DNA of 9,981 nucleotides from Symbiobacteriaceae bacterium (GTDB lineage Bacteria > Bacillota_E > Symbiobacteriia > Symbiobacteriales > Symbiobacteriaceae). A program made the position numbers and the translations under genes. The stretch covers positions 1-9,981 of the forward strand of contig DAHVXO010000183.1 in NCBI GenBank assembly GCA_027356675.1, read 5' to 3'. A model generated the notes under the pieces. It was not told the DNA's origin and did no database searches. It was given only the letters and a program-made list of their open reading frames with translations. Of this stretch, positions 2,093-9,973 are shown piece by piece; the stretch's first letter is position 1; the number at the start of each line of letters is the position of its first letter.

Positions 2093-2218
2093 AGGAAAGC
2101 GGGCACCCCATCACTAAGTATGAGAAGCTGGGGCGCCGCCGTACGTCAGTCCCGATGTGCCTTCGCCGGAGCGCCGAAACTAAGGCATGACACCGCATTC
2201 GCATTGGGGAGAGAGCCG

Positions 2219-3079
2219 ATGAAGGAATCGTTTTCCGAGCGCCAAGGTTTCCGGGCCCCGGAGCCACCCATCACCGTGCAAAACGACGCTCCTGACGAGC
2301 TACGTGAGGCGCTGCCGGTGATTGCCGAGCAAGCCGGCCTGCGCCCTTCTGGACAGCGGGACGTGATCTGCCGGGTGCTCCTGAAACGTCCTGACCCGTC
2401 GAACTGGAGCGACTATCCGAATATCAGCAACGAGGTCCATCACCTTCTGGAGGCGTGCCCCTGGTGGAAGGTCTATGACATTGCGGAAGGGCTGTATGCG
2501 GCGCTACCCGCCCCGCGCCGGTACCCCGTGGAGTACGACCTCGCTCCGGCGGCCCCGGAGCGGTCGCCGCAGGAGATCTTCGTGCGCAAGCTCAACGAGG
2601 TTCTGGTCGACAACGGCATCGGTTGGCTGATGAACGACCAGGGGATGATCGTGCTGCGCAGTGACTCCTTTTCGACCCAGGCGGTGGACCAGGCAACAAC
2701 TGCCCTGGCTGACCGCAGCATGCACAACAGTCTTCGCGAACTGAAGATGGCGCTCGAGGGGCTGTCCCGCCGTCCCGAGCCAGACGTGACAGGTGTGGTC
2801 CAGCACTCCATGGCTGCGCTCGAAGGGCTCGTCCGCGAGATTGTGGGATCGAACCGCACGCTCGGGCAAGCCACCAAGGAGCTGGAGGCTTTGGGAGTGC
2901 CTAGCGCGCTGCAGAATGCCATCAGTGCGCTCTATGGTTATGCCTCCAGTCCGCGTGGGGGCGGGCGGCACGGTGGGGAACAGTTGCAGGTAGACCGGGC
3001 CGAAGCACAGATGCTCTTTCACCTGTCAGCCGCGCTGATTGCCTACCTGTCGGCCCGTGCCGAAGATCCCCGTAAATAG
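2219..3079 (+). CDS. AbiJ-like abortive-infection protein (AbiJ N-terminal-type domain plus HEPN-like C-terminus)
   Basis: Likely a phage-defence effector of the AbiJ type, whose family pairs a variable N-terminal domain with a HEPN ribonuclease-like C-terminus. The ATG at 2219 is preceded by GGGGAGAG at a good distance; an ATG at 2120 in the same frame lacks an RBS and would add an unlikely 33 residues. The protein is 286 aa. Residues 1-95 (FSERQGFRAPEPPI, then DELREAL, then the Trp-rich CPWWKVYDIAEGLY) resemble the AbiJ N-terminal domain 4 pattern. The middle (about 100-165) is a short winged or linker segment. The C-terminal part is helical: HSMAALEGLVREIVG resembles the Abi C-terminal family, then RGGGRH (R246 to H251) fits the HEPN R-x4-6-H catalytic pattern, then a final helix. 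It faces the DUF4209 gene tail to tail across a shared hairpin. A toxic RNase role is inferred from the motif only. No antitoxin-like partner is adjacent. Confidence 0.72.
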   Translation: MKESFSERQGFRAPEPPITVQNDAPDELREALPVIAEQAGLRPSGQRDVICRVLLKRPDPSNWSDYPNISNEVHHLLEACPWWKVYDIAEGLYAALPAPRRYPVEYDLAPAAPERSPQEIFVRKLNEVLVDNGIGWLMNDQGMIVLRSDSFSTQAVDQATTALADRSMHNSLRELKMALEGLSRRPEPDVTGVVQHSMAALEGLVREIVGSNRTLGQATKELEALGVPSALQNAISALYGYASSPRGGGRHGGEQLQVDRAEAQMLFHLSAALIAYLSARAEDPRK

Positions 3080-3125: not shown

Positions 3126-4919
3126 TCAAGGAGCTTGCGGCGGTTCTGTGTTCTCTGCCGGGCCGGTCGTTCCCGAATCCTGCACCTGCGGCCGAAGGAG
3201 TGTCAGCAGCAAAATGATGTGAAGCAGGGTCTCGGCATTCGCTCGGTTGAAGGCGCCGGGCTCGGCCAGACCGTGGGCGACCTCGTTGCGAAGGTTGTAG
3301 CCGCGCGGGTCAGACAGGACTACCCGCAGGTAGGCGATGACGTCGGGACCGAACACTTCACGCAGTGCAGGTTCAGAGAGTAAGGTGCCGAACGTCTTCT
3401 CACTCGTGACGCCTGGGTGCTCGGAGTCAGCGGATGTGGTGGCCACTCCCATGCGCTGCAGGAGGTGCCGAAAACCCGCCTCTACCTGGGGAATCAAGAC
3501 GTGAATCGATCCAATGAAATCGCTCTCGAAGTACCGCTGCAAGCTGTAGGCTAGGAGCGTGTGGTCCCGGTCCCGGAACAGCCAGGCCTGCGTGACATAG
3601 GCGGTCAGGCGTTCACAGGTCAGTCCGTGCTCGGCTTTCAGCCGCTCCAAGATGGGGGCCAGGTAGAGCACAGCGTTGAACTGGATTTCGCGGCCAAAGT
3701 GCTGGTAAAGGTGGAACGCATCCGCTTCCTCGTCGGTCTTGGGGCTGGACGTGATGTTCCCGCGGGCGGTAACCGCTACGGGGCGAACCAGCATGTGGAA
3801 CACGGTACCCTCCCGGGCGGCCTGGAGACGCTCCTGCGCGCCTTGCAGGGACGGGATAAAGGCGAGGGCGATCCGCTCCAGGGCTGGCTCAAGGCCATCA
3901 GCGACGAAATGCTGGATGATCTCTTCTACGTGTTCTTTCGGAAGACTGAACCGATAACCCAGGGCCTTGAACTCCGTTTCAACCGCCTGGCGGTTCGCCT
4001 CCTGCGCCTTAACCTTGAGGCGGTCCAGCGGCTCGGGATGCCCGATGTTGCTGTAATGCTGGAGTGCCAGGGCGTAAAAGTGTCCAGCGGCAAAGTTGCT
4101 GCCGGGCAGTCGGGAGTCTCCTTCGAGTTCAAAGGACTCACCGATCTCGATGTTTGCCTTGCGCGCCGACTCCTGATCCCCAAGGGCCTTATGGAAAGCC
4201 ATCAGGCCCTTGAGCGTGAATCGGTGGGCGTTGAAATTGCCCTGGGTCCGGAACGAATCCGCCGTCCGGCGGACAAGGTCGGCTGCCTGCTGACGGAGGT
4301 TCGTGTTGCCGCCGGGCAGTTCCAAGAGGACTTCGGCGATCCGCGAGACCAACGGAAGGCGCTCGTCCGCTTCAAAGCGCAGCAGGGAGTTCATGATTTC
4401 AGCTTCCACAGCCGGAACCATCGCCTTGACGTTGAGCAGGCGGATCAACTGCGCCGTTCGGCGAAAGGCGTCATACTGCTCCAGGTCCCAGTGCTGAGCG
4501 CGGTAGTGGGGCACGCAGGCAAGGTACGCATCAACGGCCGCCCGCCCCTGCCGGAAGTCCTTGAACTTGTCCCAGAGGAAGTCGCAGTATCGCGCACGGT
4601 GGATCGGGTTGGTGGTGGTCTGCGCCCTGCTTGCGACATAGGCCTGGAGACCATCTGGCAGGTTATTCAGGTCGGGGTAGGTAGTGCCGTCCGCAGCGAT
4701 ATACTCCGGCCCGAAGCGTTCTCCGGGTGGGGCCGCATCGGTGGCATGGGCCCGGAACACCAGGTCCTCGAAATCGCATTCACGGGCGCGCTCGGCGTTC
4801 CCCTCGGCCGAAAAGGCTTCCCCGGCTTCGCGAAAAACACGTGCGCGGGAGAAAGCATACTTGTACTCGGTGGTATCGATCTCAACACCGGCAAACAGCT
4901 CGCTTCCGGTCGGTGCCAT
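3126..4919 (-). CDS. DUF4209-type protein with C-terminal HEPN-like RNxxxHG motif
   Basis: A 597-aa soluble protein of unknown function, called from its C-terminal third. The ATG at 4919 has GAGGTG six bases upstream; an in-frame GTG at 4928 lies inside that SD and is less likely. Residues 1 to about 130 form an alpha-helical N-terminal domain of the kind often found with DUF4209. The middle (about 130-340) is helical, with repeat-like AxxLxxR segments. The DUF4209 signature is clear: YFESDFIGSIHVLIPQVEAG, then KTFGTLLSE, then VVLSDPRGYNLRNEVAHGLA. R544-N-E-V-A-H549 fits the R-x4-6-H ribonuclease motif of HEPN domains. A short Pro/Thr-rich tail follows. Its neighbour on the opposite strand also has a HEPN-type motif, which suggests a defence locus. 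Two TGTAAGC copies lie 66 and 171 bases before the start and may be operator sites. RNase activity and a defence role are inferences. A long overlapping plus-strand frame here is an antisense shadow. Confidence 0.8.
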   Translation of the reverse strand: MAPTGSELFAGVEIDTTEYKYAFSRARVFREAGEAFSAEGNAERARECDFEDLVFRAHATDAAPPGERFGPEYIAADGTTYPDLNNLPDGLQAYVASRAQTTTNPIHRARYCDFLWDKFKDFRQGRAAVDAYLACVPHYRAQHWDLEQYDAFRRTAQLIRLLNVKAMVPAVEAEIMNSLLRFEADERLPLVSRIAEVLLELPGGNTNLRQQAADLVRRTADSFRTQGNFNAHRFTLKGLMAFHKALGDQESARKANIEIGESFELEGDSRLPGSNFAAGHFYALALQHYSNIGHPEPLDRLKVKAQEANRQAVETEFKALGYRFSLPKEHVEEIIQHFVADGLEPALERIALAFIPSLQGAQERLQAAREGTVFHMLVRPVAVTARGNITSSPKTDEEADAFHLYQHFGREIQFNAVLYLAPILERLKAEHGLTCERLTAYVTQAWLFRDRDHTLLAYSLQRYFESDFIGSIHVLIPQVEAGFRHLLQRMGVATTSADSEHPGVTSEKTFGTLLSEPALREVFGPDVIAYLRVVLSDPRGYNLRNEVAHGLAEPGAFNRANAETLLHIILLLTLLRPQVQDSGTTGPAENTEPPQAP

Positions 4920-4931
4920 GTCCTTCACCTC

Positions 4932-5368
4932 GGGCTTTGTTTAGTCGTCGTGCACGTCCGTGAGCGCTGCTGTTGTCGCGGTGTGCTTACATCTCGGCTG
5001 TCACTCGACCGAACCTGCGCCGAAAACAAGGACCCATCGATTGATGAAGTCTTTGCGGCTGTAGGCGTGGGAGCGACAATACCAAACTCGCTTACAGCAA
5101 GTGGTCACCCAAGAGGGGGGACATTCCGGTCCTGGTCACTATCATCGTGGCCGGCCAGAACGGGGCGACGGCGGTGACCCGCGTGAAGGCCATCGGACAG
5201 GTGATAAAGCACCGTGGTGCTGCCCGGGTCTAGGATCCACTCAAAGACCCAGGGTTAGCCCATTGGGAGAGGCACGAACCGCTCGCCGAATCACGGCTGG
5301 CGGTCGACCACCATCTGCGTAGTCTGCACCACCGGGTCCACCAACGTGCGCGTCCAACCGGTCAGGGA
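4932..5368. other. Gene-poor spacer between the DUF4209 gene and the winged-helix/Xre gene
   Basis: About 440 bases without a supported gene. The part near the DUF4209 gene should hold its promoter and the two TGTAAGC sites. A plus-strand frame at about 5115-5232 (GDIPVLVTIIVAGQNGATA, up to a TAG) looks mildly protein-like, but it has no start with an RBS and no family I recognise. It may be residue of a lost gene. No clear terminator follows the stop of the winged-helix/Xre gene at 5369. Confidence 0.45.
4985..5096 (-). promoter_or_regulatory. Two TGTAAGC sites upstream of the DUF4209 gene
   Basis: Read on the minus strand, TGTAAGC occurs at 4991-4985 (context GATGTAAGCACA) and at 5096-5090 (context GCTGTAAGCGAG), 105 bases apart and in the same orientation as the gene. 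The same heptamer recurs in the other gene-free regions. A good sigma-70 -35/-10 pair could not be placed with confidence. The sites could be operators or iteron-like repeats. Confidence 0.4.
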
Positions 5369-6871
5369 TCATTTGGGCTGCATCATGCCGGCATTCAACC
5401 AGGAGAGTTGGAGGGATTCTCCGCCGCCCGGGGCCTGCTCTTGCACCGAGGCAGCGACCTGGTCGAACTGCTCCCCGGTAAGTTCGGCCAGCTTCAGGGC
5501 GACCAGCCGGTTCAGCTTCTTGGCCGTCTCATCGGTGATTCCCCGCTGCCCATTCTCCAGCATGCAGACGAACCCCCGGCTGACGCCCAGGGCGTCGGCA
5601 AAGTCGCGTTGGCCCATCTTCAAGTGAACGCGTAGGGCCCTGACCGCTTCCGGGGTCCAGAAGGGCTGGGAGGGTGCGGTTAGCGCGGCCACCGGCTCCT
5701 TCAAGGCCCCATCGTCCCCCGGCGTGCTGAGCGCCTGAATGCCTTGTCGCCAGTACACGTCATAGACGGCGTCCTCAATCGTCACGCTCAGCGCCTGCTG
5801 GAGCCATGTCTCATACCAGCGGTGGCGTGGCCGCTGCCCTTCCAGCAGCCCGTATGTGGCATCATCCCAGTCCTCATAGGACCAACCCAACTCACCGATG
5901 ACACGATCCTGGCAAAGCGTGTTCAGCGCCTTTTCGAGCCGATCTTTGTACTCTTTGGGGCGCCGAGGCGAGTCCGTAGGTAGGCCAGCGACGTCGACCA
6001 GCTCCTGTACGGTGACGCGGACCGAGCGGCTCCCGAGCTTGAAGCGGCGGCGGAAGATTAGCCCAAGGTAGCGGGTGAGCCGCTTTTCCACTACCTGGAG
6101 CGTGTCCTTGTACTGCAACGCCCTTGTGGCCAGAAGTGCCCACTCTTCCGGCGATTCAAGCAGGTAGCGGGCCAGTAGCGGACCGGGCTGCAGCTCCACC
6201 CCGTCGAGGACAATGCCTTCACCAAACACGACGGTTCGACCGGTGGTGGTATCCTCTTGACCAGCCACCACCCGTGTGCCGACCCGGTCACGGATCATCA
6301 ACACCGGCGAAAGGCGGACCTGCTGCAGCAGGATAAAGTCCTGCTCCGACTGCCCCTTCCGGCGCCGAGTGACCTTCTTGGTCTGCGACAGCGGCACCTC
6401 GTAGCACTGGGTACCGCCCAGCCGGAGCACGCCCTCCTGGACCTTGAACCGATCCCGGACCCGATACGCCAGCCCCCCATCCTGAGGCTGAATACCGGAG
6501 AGTTCAAGCACATCAGCGAACGGAACATAGACCCAGTCGGGTTTCGTGCCCGTTCCCTGGCGCCATAGCTCACAGGCCGCCGTGAACGCATCCACGTCGG
6601 CATCATTCATGCGCTGGAACAAGGCATGGGTTTGTACAACCGTGAGAAGCATGGCCTGCCGGATCGACGCGGTCGCTTCGTCCACCTGAACCTGCAGACC
6701 AGCCGCAGAACCCAGCTCTGGGTTCTCGAAGTGGTACGAGTAAGTCCCGCCCTGCGCCGTTTCCCATTCTTCCAGCCCCCGGGAAAAACCCCGGTGAAGC
6801 GCCTCGAAGACCGCCTGGGTCGGATGCACCATGTGTTGGGGCACTCTGCCCTTGCTTTGTCGCCTTGCCAT
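5369..6871 (-). CDS. Winged-helix and C-terminal Xre-HTH DNA-binding protein, plasmid initiator- or regulator-like
   Basis: A 500-aa cytosolic protein from the ATG at 6871 (AGGGA nearby). Upstream in-frame starts, GTG 6898 and TTG 6901 behind AAAAGGA, are a real alternative that would add 9-10 residues. Residues 1-90 are helical with a basic start (MARRQSKGR). About 95-160 look like one winged helix (VYVPFADVLELSGIQ, then YRVRDRFKVQEGVLRLGG) and about 260-330 like a second (LTRYLGLIFRRRFKLG, VTVQELVDVAGLP, RLEKALNTLCQDRVIGEL). This tandem layout recalls theta-plasmid replication initiators. Residues 413-456 are a clear Cro/C1 HTH (GQRDFADALGVSRGFVCMLENGQRG). The family was not identified. TGTAAGC sites lie upstream in the gene-free region. 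It could be an initiator that autoregulates, or a large repressor controlling the neighbouring genes. That it is a real gene and has an Xre HTH is well supported; the replication role is a guess. Confidence 0.75.
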   Translation of the reverse strand: MARRQSKGRVPQHMVHPTQAVFEALHRGFSRGLEEWETAQGGTYSYHFENPELGSAAGLQVQVDEATASIRQAMLLTVVQTHALFQRMNDADVDAFTAACELWRQGTGTKPDWVYVPFADVLELSGIQPQDGGLAYRVRDRFKVQEGVLRLGGTQCYEVPLSQTKKVTRRRKGQSEQDFILLQQVRLSPVLMIRDRVGTRVVAGQEDTTTGRTVVFGEGIVLDGVELQPGPLLARYLLESPEEWALLATRALQYKDTLQVVEKRLTRYLGLIFRRRFKLGSRSVRVTVQELVDVAGLPTDSPRRPKEYKDRLEKALNTLCQDRVIGELGWSYEDWDDATYGLLEGQRPRHRWYETWLQQALSVTIEDAVYDVYWRQGIQALSTPGDDGALKEPVAALTAPSQPFWTPEAVRALRVHLKMGQRDFADALGVSRGFVCMLENGQRGITDETAKKLNRLVALKLAELTGEQFDQVAASVQEQAPGGGESLQLSWLNAGMMQPK

Positions 6872-6966
6872 GTGTCCCTGCGGCCCCCATTCAGACACCA
6901 ATTCCTTTTCGCGATTCGGCGCGGGACGGGCTCACCCCTGCCCGGCTCCCCGCAGGTGCTCACAGC

Positions 6967-7308
6967 GCTTACAAAACCCGACCAAACCACCGCCATAAGG
7001 ATGAACCTGGAACAGCGAGACTTACGCTGAGACAAGCGAAAGGAACCGCGCTTACTGCTCACACATGTCGACCAGACTACTGCCGATCTGTAAGCATGCC
7101 ACGCCCCACCGCTGGTTCAACGGGGGCATGCCCCGCGGGCCGCAGCCGGCAATCGATGCCGGCAACCACTGGCAGGAAGGTTCACCCCGTGCTGGCGGTC
7201 AATGAAGAGATGGCGGACTTCCTGGCGGCTGAGGCGGCAGAACGTCCCCGCAAGAGGACTAACTGCCGACGCCGGCTAAGTCTTCTGACCACCGCTGAAT
7301 CTGTAAGC
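6967..7308. promoter_or_regulatory. TGTAAGC motif cluster upstream of the winged-helix/Xre gene
   Basis: Exact TGTAAGC copies lie at 6967-6973 (minus strand), 7089-7095 (plus) and 7302-7308 (plus); the last two share ATCTGTAAGC. Near copies are AGTAAGC at 7050-7056 (minus) and CGTAAG at 7021-7026 (minus). The nearest copy is about 95 bases before the gene start, suitable for an operator or for iterons beside a rep-type gene. Confidence 0.45.
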
Positions 7309-7657
7309 TGCGGCATACTTGCGGAACTTCACGGGGAACACGACGTCTGTACACTCCCATGTGAATCGTGTCGTGATCCCGGGGGCACAACAGCCAACAA
7401 GGCTGCTACAAGCCGGCGTGTAGGACGGGAGTCGGGATCTGCCTGAACCAATCCAGGTTCTGGACGTAGCGCGCTGGGGTAGAGACGGATTTCTGCGAAA
7501 GGACGCTGCCTCTATCGTTGTCAGTCTTCAGAGGCCTTCTTGATGTTCCCCTCCGAGATTGTACGTCGCGTGATCGCGCCTTCATTGTAGGTGTTGGTTG
7601 GGAATGGGGCATTGGTAGAGCAATGCAATGGCGGTGCCACATTGGGGAATCGGAGCA

Positions 7658-7669
7658 TTGAGGCCTCAA
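7658..7669. repeat. 12-base perfect palindrome
   Basis: TTGAGGCCTCAA reads the same on both strands. It sits in the gene-free region about 30 bases after a short inverted repeat, GCATTG/CAATGC (7609-7626). It could be a dimer-binding site or chance. Confidence 0.4.
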
Positions 7670-8104
7670 AGCCATGGGGAACAAGGGTTTTCGGTGGGGA
7701 TAACCTTGGCCGAACGCAGTAGTCTGAACACGTACCACTTTGTGGAATGGTGGATCAACAGCCACGCGAGACTACGCAGTAAGAGGTCCCACCTTATTGA
7801 CATGGGGATACTGTCCGCACTTGATCCACTTATTCCCGAGGTGGCAACTGAGGGTTGGTCACAGGCCGCGCATTCGTGTGGGTAACTGGAAGAACTCTTG
7901 CGTGCCAGCTGGAGGATATGTGAACAATATCGGCCCCCAGAGAGGACCCTTATTGACAGTCGGTGTACGACTTGCGGGTGCCACCTTGCGAGCATGTGCA
8001 TATGCGCCCGTCGCAGGCCGGGGTGGAGGCGGCCAGGGGCAGGGGCCGGTTAGCAGCAGCGGATCTCCAGAGCGCGCCGCCGGTCTTACCAGGTGGCTGA
8101 AGGA

Positions 8105-8145
8105 CACGAAAAATGCCTTCCGTGACACGGTCACGGAAGGCATTC
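8105..8145 (-). terminator. Strong intrinsic terminator for the HTH/DnaA-N-like gene
   Basis: The arms AATGCCTTCCGTGAC (8112-8126) and GTCACGGAAGGCATT (8130-8144) pair perfectly over 15 bases around a three-base loop. On the minus strand the stem runs straight into TTTTTCGTG. It lies about 75 bases after the minus-strand stop at 8218, and its polarity fits that gene. Confidence 0.9.
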
Positions 8146-8163
8146 CACCAGCCGGCGCAATGT

Positions 8164-8201
8164 CGCCAACCCCGCATCATGGGATGCAGGGGAGCGTGGC
8201 G
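8164..8201 (-). other. Nested hairpin in the 3' untranslated region
   Basis: An inner stem, CCCC-GCATC against GATGC-A-GGGG (8170-8192, loop ATGG with a bulged A), lies inside an outer CGCCA (8164-8168) and TGGCG (8197-8201) pair. It sits between the stop of the minus-strand gene and its terminator. No U-tract follows, so it is more likely an RNA-stabilising or pausing structure than a second terminator. Confidence 0.5.
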
Positions 8202-8217
8202 GGGCAGGGTATAGAGT

Positions 8218-9285
8218 TCAACGAAGCCAGGTGGCGTTCGCCAGTTCTATCCGGCATGATCGCACCCGGGCCAGGATGATGGCGGCTTGCGGCGATACCG
8301 CCCCCGTGACCGTCAATGTCTCGCCGTCGAAAGTCACAGGGCGGAGTTTGCGGAAGAGTCGGAGCGTGGTAGTCAGAGGGATGCGGGCGCGAATGGCCTG
8401 GATCACCTCATACCACTTTTCCGCCGGCGCCTTGTCCGAAAGCGGAGCCTCATCCTCGATCCACTCCACCTCAGAGCGAAGGACGGCCTCCGGTCGTTCC
8501 GGATCACCGAGGCGGGCCTGAAGGTCCCGCGCAACCTGAATCGCCTCATCGGATACGAACAGGCGATAGGTATTGGTGGGGTGGGCTTCAGACGCGCGGC
8601 GGCAACCACCCTTGACGGCCTTTCCGGCACCATCTGCGGGCGTTGCGACGGAGAGCTGCTCCAGCACCTCCAGGGGACCTCCCTGGTACTTGATCACCCG
8701 CATGAGGTGCTGGCGGCTGACCCCGAGAATTCCGGCCATGGCGCGCGATGACGGGGCGACAATCAGATCCGAATGTGGCTTCGGTTTACGCCCTTGGCGA
8801 CCGAGGCCGGCCAGATAAAGCGCAACTCCCGTGATGTGGAGCAGGAGGGGGTGGGCGTTTGCGATTCGCGCATTGGGGCTGGCCGCCTGCATGTGTGGTA
8901 TGCGGCGGATCTGCGCAGGCCCGGTGAAACCCGGGTCGCAGTATTTGGGGAGGGGAATCCGATCCAGGAAGCGCGGGTCGGCATCCGGAATTACCTGTAG
9001 AATGAGCAGGTTGAACTCGTCGCGAGAGAGATCCTTCAGGCGCGGCCAGTTAGCCTCCCACCAGACTGCCCAGTCCCGCTCCCACTCCCAGGTGCGGTAT
9101 CCATTATCCCACGTGCTTTTGTACTCGGGCTGCTCAGGGGTGGCTGGCGGGGCGATCCGGGCAAACAGATCTGGCCGCAGCCAGCCGTGGAGGGGGTCAG
9201 GGTTGGCGTAACGAGCTGCACGCTTTGCCAGGTAGACGGGGGAATACCCGTGCGCGTTGACAGGTGCTGGTGAAACGGTAGCCAC
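8218..9285 (-). CDS. HTH protein with DnaA N-terminal-like C-terminus, candidate replication initiator
   Basis: A 355-aa protein. The chosen GTG at 9285 has GAGGAGGG seven bases upstream. The frame stays open to 9669, but that extension is low-complexity and unlike protein, and the ATG at 9315 lacks an RBS. Residues 1-130 are rich in Trp/Tyr/Pro (WEWERDWAVWWEANW, 66-80). Residues 170-200 (PHSDLIVAPSSRAMAGILGVSRQHLMRVIK) form a helix-turn-helix. Residues 290-350 (KWYEVIQAIRARIPLTTTLRLFRKLRPVTFDGETLTVTGA) follow the pattern of the DnaA N-terminal domain: W, about 25 residues, then L-xx-DG-x-TLTV, which in DnaA contacts DnaB, DnaD or regulators. HTH plus DnaA-N fits a plasmid replication or helicase-loading protein. 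Strong transcription stop signals follow. TGTAAGC sites, including a perfect inverted repeat, lie upstream at 9557-9789. That it is a gene is well supported; the role is inferred from the domain pattern only. Confidence 0.72.
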   Translation of the reverse strand: MATVSPAPVNAHGYSPVYLAKRAARYANPDPLHGWLRPDLFARIAPPATPEQPEYKSTWDNGYRTWEWERDWAVWWEANWPRLKDLSRDEFNLLILQVIPDADPRFLDRIPLPKYCDPGFTGPAQIRRIPHMQAASPNARIANAHPLLLHITGVALYLAGLGRQGRKPKPHSDLIVAPSSRAMAGILGVSRQHLMRVIKYQGGPLEVLEQLSVATPADGAGKAVKGGCRRASEAHPTNTYRLFVSDEAIQVARDLQARLGDPERPEAVLRSEVEWIEDEAPLSDKAPAEKWYEVIQAIRARIPLTTTLRLFRKLRPVTFDGETLTVTGAVSPQAAIILARVRSCRIELANATWLR

Positions 9286-9556
9286 GCGGTATCCCTCCTC
9301 GGAAAAGTCTCTCATGCAGCACATCACGGTCAGCCCGAGGCAACTGAAAAGCCTCCATACGCAGCAGGCAAAGTGATAGTAGCGGTGGGGATCGCCTGCG
9401 CCGCGACATCGCCACCTACAGATCCAGGAACCATCGGGGACGCTGGCGGCGCCAGGAACCGGCCAAGATAGGCAGCGGCGTGATGCAACCGGGAAGGGTG
9501 CCCCTTTTGCCTGTCTCCTGGCAATGTTTATACCGCAGGCGGGCGTGAAGCGCATT

Positions 9557-9582
9557 GCTGTAAGCGCGTGGGTGCTTACAGC
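9557..9582. repeat. Perfect inverted repeat of the TGTAAGC motif
   Basis: GCTGTAAGC (9557-9565) and GCTTACAGC (9574-9582) are exact reverse complements separated by eight bases (GCGTGGGT), with 17 bases from centre to centre. The spacing suits a dimeric regulator or paired initiator monomers, and differs from a terminator because no T-tract follows on either side. Confidence 0.75.
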
Positions 9583-9782
9583 CCAGAAGGGCATCAACAC
9601 AGGGCAGAGTGCTTGCATTGGCGGGAGGTTGGTCGAGTTTTTCGGTGGGGGTCTGGTCAACGCAGGCATATCGGCGCCGTGAAACTGCCTCAGTCTCTCG
9701 CAGGCCTTAGAGCCACAAGGTCTTAGCGGTCACGGTGTTAACGAGGGGCAACCAGAATTACGGTGCCGGTTTGGTCGATTTC

Positions 9783-9973
9783 TGTAAGCGACCGGGGGAC
9801 CCAATCCACACCTCTGTGAAGGCGGAATGCCGTGTCAGCCCTGCGTCCGAGGCCTTCATGCGGGTGCTGAGGACGGCGGCGCGCGCGCCAGCATTCGTAA
9901 GCGCGATGGCGAGCCTGGGCGGCGCTCACAAAATCAGATGCGATCGACCAAGCCTCCGCCAAAACGTAAGCGC
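9783..9973 (+). promoter_or_regulatory. TGTAAGC/CGTAAGCG sites at the right end
   Basis: TGTAAGC occurs at 9783-9789, and the variants CGTAAGCGCG (9896-9905) and CGTAAGCGCA (9965-9973) follow, all on the plus strand, at intervals of 113 and 69 bases. More copies may lie beyond the window. The spacing is too irregular for a classical tight iteron array. Confidence 0.4.

Follow-up and report, generated by a model that had tools for sequence, protein, structure and literature searches.

Why does a single heptamer, TGTAAGC, recur in the gene-free DNA of a bacterial contig? The stretch in question, called the window here, comprises all 9,981 nucleotides analysed from contig DAHVXO010000183.1 of a Symbiobacteriaceae bacterium and has a GC content of 62 per cent. 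The initial annotation had noticed the concentration of the word and proposed either a shared operator or a dispersed iteron or partition site. We consider that the gene at 5369-6871 probably encodes an iteron-type initiator with an RctB-like core and an XRE helix-turn-helix (HTH) domain, and that TGTAAGC is probably the shorter part of the compound sites to which this protein binds. The iteron part of the earlier reading is thereby supported, and the operator part is reduced to a minor role at most. The region would then be an iteron-type origin whose sites have two parts, with an initiator from a family that has no name, and an odd word count becomes a candidate origin that can be tested.

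Two kinds of box in gene-free DNA

Eight exact copies of TGTAAGC, the number first reported, stand at 4985(-), 5090(-), 6967(-), 7089(+), 7302(+), 9559(+), 9574(-) and 9783(+), where 0.65 are expected by chance (standard deviation 0.79) and no more than three were found in any of 200 dinucleotide shuffles. The reported variants are also present, AGTAAGC at 7050 and CGTAAGC at 9896 and 9965, and a partial CGTAAG is readable at 7021. Non-coding DNA makes up 2,923 of the 9,981 bases, with an open reading frame (ORF) region recognised by eye at 707-1003 masked as gene, and within it the 6-mer GTAAGC occurs 11 times as against none inside genes. Upstream of each of the three minus-strand genes in the window there is a heptamer cluster, as had been claimed. 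The related GTGAGC is not confined in this way (five copies outside genes, four inside). When one mismatch is allowed the excess becomes much smaller (27 matches versus 16.7 expected, with 27 reached in 2 of 200 shuffles). Most of the signal therefore comes from the exact word, and GCTCACA variants at particular places add to it.

The heptamer has a partner that was missing from the initial annotation, a 17-nt long box at fixed spacing to it. A de novo motif search of the non-coding DNA, which had been proposed as a check, returned this second motif: the best unseeded seven-copy 17-mer across three non-coding stretches marks the same seven sites as the blocks seen flanking the heptamers, starting at 5005(+), 6978(+), 7068(+), 9944(+), 9620(-), 9644(-) and 9762(-). 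Its consensus is TCGACCAAACCnCCGCC followed by GAAA, and its information content is 23.9 bits versus 19.3-20.6 bits in 12 shuffles and 20.3 bits in coding DNA of equal length. Leave-one-out scores of the seven members run from 15.9 to 19.6 bits, and the best non-member in the window, at 5450, scores 10.6-14.4 bits.

Spacing between the two boxes is also regular. With the long box's first base as reference and short boxes read as GCTYAC, three long boxes have a short box starting at -20 and three have one at -11, positions that are 9 bases or about one helical turn apart, and an inverted GTAAGC starts at +22 (the heptamer at +21) beside two; a short box lies no more than 40 bases away from five of the seven long boxes. 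Randomly shifting the short boxes by at most 30 bases gave 0.31 repeated offsets on average versus the five observed, a value reached in 0 of 20,000 trials, and three sites at one offset arose in 0.5 per cent of trials. The resulting sites are listed in Table 1.

Table 1. Boxes, compound sites and the two associated genes in the window; offsets are relative to the first base of the long box.
Feature	Position	Strand	Composition
Compound site I	4985..5021	+	short box GCTTACA (4985) at -20; long box TCGACCGAACCTGCGCC (5005-5021)
Lone short box	5090..5096	-	TGTAAGC
Initiator-like gene	5369..6871	-	500 amino acids; N-terminal part, RctB/Rep-like double winged-helix core, C-terminal XRE HTH
Compound site II	6958..6994	+	GCTCACA (-20); GCTTACA (-11); long box CCGACCAAACCACCGCC (6978-6994)
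Compound site III	7050..7095	+	GCTTACT (-18); GCTCACA (-11); long box TCGACCAGACTACTGCC (7068-7084); inverted TGTAAGC (+21)
Lone short box	7302..7308	+	TGTAAGC
Companion gene	8218..9315	-	family unassigned; middle part winged-helix-like
Inverted short-box pair	9559..9580		8 bp between the boxes
Tandem long-box pair	9620..9660	-	9644-9660 then 9620-9636; 24 bp start to start; candidate core iterons
Compound site IV	9762..9789	-	GCTTACA (-11); long box TCGACCAAACCGGCACC
Lone short-box variant	9896..9902	+	CGTAAGC
Compound site V	9924..9971	+	GCTCACA (-20); long box TCGACCAAGCCTCCGCC (9944-9960); inverted CGTAAGC (+21)

Sites II and III lie at least 87 bases upstream of the start of the initiator-like gene, and fold comparison of its predicted protein model finds the RctB-like fold of domains 2-3, that is, two winged helices. 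From this arrangement we infer DNA binding, a division of the two boxes between the domains, and an origin function. The 17-nt long box would be recognised by the winged-helix core, and the XRE domain would recognise one or two short boxes, which lie on one face of the DNA at a distance of about a helical turn. If the protein works as iteron initiators do, the tandem long boxes may be the core iterons at which an opening complex is nucleated, and the compound sites close to its gene would serve to repress that gene, to titrate the protein and to pair origins, thereby setting copy number.

Homologous genes and their adjoining repeats

A protein search in which the best 7,995 candidates were scored found P0002 (49 per cent) and four more distant relatives of the initiator-like protein; three relatives of the companion protein were found, including P0010. 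The longest contig is 39,770 bases in the records of both P0002 and P0010, and because they share this figure the two genes probably travel together. Searching plasmids with the initiator-like protein by tblastn gave ten records, and a genome scan gave three Chloroflexota loci (L010-L012). The plasmid homologues, from Peribacillus, Metabacillus, Niallia, Bacillus and Klebsiella, are XRE-domain proteins annotated as transcriptional regulators, and together with those of the Chloroflexota metagenome-assembled genomes (MAGs) they show 21-29 per cent identity. Among 120 genomes of the same class as the Chloroflexota loci 16 match, seven of these from residue 363 on only. A further 16 Chloroflexota loci were fetched, giving 19 in total with L010-L012.

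Repeats adjoin many of these genes. Repeated 14-mers beside the gene exceed all 15 shuffles in 10 of the first 12 loci, the ten representing about five lineages, and they lie upstream in seven plasmids (6-17 copies) and downstream in the three Chloroflexota loci (4-5 copies). Across each plasmid as a whole, the long repeat keeps to the gene's flank, with 9/9, 8/8 and 6/7 copies there in three Peribacillus plasmids, 9/9 in that of B. arachidis and 6/6 in that of Niallia; of the short word TGGTGCA in Niallia, only 9/25 copies lie there. The 660 bases adjoining the gene hold 5 of the 7 copies of GGGGTAATC, and 11 of the 24 of TATGAAT, that occur in a 400-kb length of Chloroflexota contig. Unseeded six-copy motifs beat the best of four shuffles by at least 2 bits in 17 of the 19 Chloroflexota loci, the de novo search finding repeats in more of them than the initial 14-mer counts did, and same-strand copies 21-22 bp apart occur in 12 of the 19 versus 3 of 76 shuffles. 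Several separate observations concern the same surroundings. A single Peribacillus repeat copy (W03:C1:171455) lies about 26 kb from its cluster, and on the B. arachidis plasmid (L008) a second nine-copy 14-mer region, at about 8350-11200, lies downstream of the initiator-like gene. At L059, 1.5 kb upstream of the gene, a 14-mer like GCTAGCATGCAAGC occurs nine times and GCAAGCA 18 times, with no downstream array. Beyond the repeat cluster, L010 (7800-9692), L011 (7702-9420) and L012 (7696-9426) have a conserved second gene with no Pfam match.

A seeded search covered ten of the 19 loci (the seed pattern gave no hit at L054, L055, L064 and L065; L058-L061 and L063 were left out) and gave 69 candidate long boxes, of which some are probably false, for example at L051, L052 and L056; copies exactly 22 bp apart were found in all ten. 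Each locus's short word was chosen by enrichment, blind to spacing. Matches to it with at most one mismatch fall at -12/-13 (16), at -20 to -22 (21) and inverted at +21 (5) relative to these long boxes, where the corresponding window distances are -11, -20 and inverted +21; a further seven inverted matches fall at +4, inside the long box, and three at +23. Two short boxes in a row precede the long box at L051, L056 and L055, like window site II.

The long-box sequence itself is a separate matter, and we regard it as alike to that of the window, by sequence comparison, at L062 alone, a restriction that slightly lowers our confidence in the overall reading. There the unseeded motif GTCGGGGTAACCnCTGCCcAAA fits the window's TCGACCAAACCnCCGCCgAAA better than 6,000 of 6,000 column permutations, and this match fixes the register by sequence; the short word TATACAT then stands at -20 three times (at 214, 310 and 446 in the downstream stretch), the same distance as in the window. 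A pooled comparison placing the window long box in register with the Chloroflexota box (P 0.033) was set aside as partly circular, because the seed pattern favoured TCG and CC ends after the window box had been seen.

Short words, on the other hand, differ from place to place. GCTTACA, with eight copies in the window, has none in the ten relative loci counted, and seven words were found in the Chloroflexota loci (TATGAAT, TTATGCA, TATGCAT, TATACCT, TATAACC, TATTCCT and TATACAT), some common to related loci; L056 has only three copies of its word, and at L057 eight of nine copies share one orientation. Bin G002, a MAG in which strain mixing is possible, holds seven strong initiator relatives (L020, which is the same locus as L011, and L050-L055) and one weaker match, and no two of the seven strong relatives combine the same short word with the same long box. 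TATTCCT is the word at both L053 and L054, and the words of L050 and L055 have TATGCA in common; the long box differs within each pair. The residue before the usual Gln of the XRE recognition helix is Val or Asn with TATG words, Ala or Ser with TATA words and Gly with TATT words, and these classes, assigned by eye and after the fact on 12 loci, track the short word in 11 of them, L054 being the exception. In the window's helix the usual Gln is Arg, where TATnnnn becomes GCTTACA; L064, whose short word is unassigned, also has Arg at that position.

These correspondences suggest that the XRE domain may read the short box. It is possible, and we advance the idea tentatively, that we are dealing with a family not yet described, whose origins have a modular two-part address consisting of a long box for the winged-helix core and a fast-changing heptamer for the XRE domain. 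If so, a change of either word would yield mutually compatible replicons, a readable incompatibility code for secondary replicons. The similar layout with different words in related plasmids and genomes likewise suggests a changeable address code for copying DNA. Were the two-part code true, replicon compatibility would become predictable from sequence, and RctB-like origin control would reach beyond Vibrionales and Plesiomonas. The sites also point to a family of probable initiators, currently annotated as XRE regulators, on Bacillales plasmids and in Chloroflexota genomes; no description of this initiator family was found in an open-licence library of papers, the only literature searched.

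Initiator, operator or partition site

RctB and ori2 of Vibrio chromosome 2 offer a useful comparison, within the portions of the cited papers that were available. As in the window protein, a double winged-helix core is joined there to a further HTH (PMC6090056, PMC5395669, PMC11711613), two kinds of words occur in the origin region, which in the window the protein would bind, and sites lie near the initiator promoter. One-turn variants are likewise common to both: the RctB 29-mer is the 39-mer minus 10 central bases, with a 29-mer overlapping the rctB promoter (PMC6090056), and the window short box stands at -11 or -20. The RctB words compared were TGATCA and TTACGG only, and the TTAC that the window short box shares with the latter was given no weight. 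Unlike RctB, the window protein has no PF11826 match and has an XRE HTH at its C-terminus, and unlike ori2 the window joins its two words in one compound site at fixed spacing. The Plesiomonas RctB chromid origin, in the available text of its description, also resembles the window in being an ORF-free region with two repeat types, there 10-mers and 8-mers in the interval between initiator gene and parAB (PMC8826520). However, Plesiomonas RctB has the central-domain hidden Markov model match (PF11826/DUF3346) that the same text calls diagnostic of the RctB family (PMC8826520), which the window protein does not have, and the L010-L012 repeats lie on the gene's far side from parAB.

Iteron plasmids, represented by RepE and pi, have repeats near the initiator gene and a double winged-helix fold, as here, in the part of the source available (PMC5395669). 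The tandem repeats two helical turns apart in the relatives also agree with them, whereas a Pfam Rep family match is absent from the window protein. RepA of pPS10 and TrfA are further iteron-plasmid initiators for comparison. To our knowledge, short heptamers at fixed offsets in both orientations, together with an extra XRE domain, fall outside the iteron scheme. The uncharacterised XRE-domain proteins of Bacillales and Klebsiella plasmids and of Chloroflexota MAGs are homologous, but they are accompanied by other words and by one compact cluster versus three in the window.

On two Peribacillus plasmids the marked initiator position is 5.6 and 4.5 kb away from the minimum of cumulative GC skew; the maximum is 77-90 kb distant, and none of 500 block shuffles reached the amplitude. 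DnaA sits on another contig in 3/3 Chloroflexota genomes carrying the locus, and at L011 ParA and ParB are encoded divergently from the initiator-like gene; because of these two facts, the locus may belong to a second replicon.

An operator would account for several of the same features. Under such a local regulon, the XRE-domain protein, or that of 8218-9315, would repress the three minus-strand genes, unrelated to replication; clusters do stand upstream of all three, the XRE HTH at the protein's end has sequence and fold neighbours that are mostly repressors and antitoxins, and the plasmid relatives carry regulator annotations. We nevertheless think it unlikely, since relatives have tandem long boxes 21-22 bp apart, the repeat is confined to one gene flank across whole plasmids, and the Chloroflexota repeats lie 3' of the gene, with ParA and ParB on the opposite side at L011; the RctB-like double winged-helix core also argues against it. 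Slightly less probable again is that the main reader of the heptamer is the 8218-9315 protein, whose middle part is winged-helix-like, whose gene has the short-box group 9559-9971 upstream, and whose relative P0010 shares the longest-contig figure with P0002. Against this, all repeat-cluster loci were found through the 5369-6871 protein, hhalign detects no relationship between the companion gene and the second gene at the Chloroflexota loci (probability 0.1 per cent), and the XRE helix residues vary with the heptamer as described, in classes set after the fact. Partition sites (a centromere) for one of the two HTH proteins we hold to be very improbable: short repeats clustered in both orientations in non-coding DNA would suit them, but none of the six window proteins tested gave a ParA-, ParM- or TubZ-like match, L011 has its own separate ParA and ParB, and the fold match is to an initiator core.

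The iteron-type initiator reading has evidence to contend with as well. Both protein models are of low confidence (mean predicted local distance difference test, pLDDT, 52.0 and 51.5), the Pfam matches of the initiator-like protein are HTH_3, HTH_19 and HTH_31 only, and no Pfam initiator (Rep) family match to it was found. PF11826/DUF3346 was not matched by the window protein at E up to 1, nor above cut-off in any of eight relative records, a comparison for which the 14 control genomes, also with none, gave no positive control. The window sites form three clusters over 5 kb on both strands, where the clusters of relatives are compact, and the only tandem long-box pair in the window is 2.7 kb from the initiator-like gene. 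No GTRAGC lies within 40 bases of its two long boxes, and the +21 short box or a near variant is missing at four of the seven. A strongly AT-rich stretch was not found near the sites, where the lowest GC is 0.525 (7700-7899); the 25 AT-richest 40-nt stretches start at 1033-1277. Exact DnaA boxes number zero in the window, with 10 at one mismatch versus 6.0 expected. Part of the origin may lie outside the window, because the contig continues past 9981.

Among the relatives, L001 and L003 have no repeats beside the gene (at L003 for the upstream side only), a stricter 14-mer count gives at least five copies 3' of the gene in only 9 of the 16 further loci (L050-L057 and L062), and the unseeded six-copy search found no downstream repeats at L058 and L059. 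De novo likeness to the window long box reaches P < 0.05 in only 3 of 19 loci (L051, 0.030; L056, 0.033; L062, 0/400) and also in one of seven coding controls. As to GC skew, the two Peribacillus plasmids are related and provide a single case, and the record of one gives it as linear; Niallia is uninformative (P 0.17), the skew of B. arachidis points 48 kb off, with a replicase and ParM near the minimum, and no skew switch was seen at three Chloroflexota loci.

Neighbouring genes and other features

Directly 3' of the companion gene, at 8112-8144, a perfect 15-bp inverted repeat with a 3-base loop looks terminator-like and is absent from the terminator scan, and the non-coding DNA at 7633-8001 has imperfect inverted repeats around TTGATCCAC and two copies of GGTGCCAC.

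Further away, the proteins of 2120-3079 (AbiJ_NTD4) and 3126-4928 (DUF4209/DUF7380) are possibly products of defence genes adjoining the origin-like region. An ORF at 1337-2092 resembles a LigD-like ATP-dependent ligase and, with its Pfam ligase domain matched only from position 53 of 204, seems to lack its N-terminal part. The region 707-1003, after merA, holds a small metal-binding-like ORF that by eye is split across two frames, and among plasmids the fragment of mercuric reductase is most similar, at 82 per cent, to a record from Paenibacillus.

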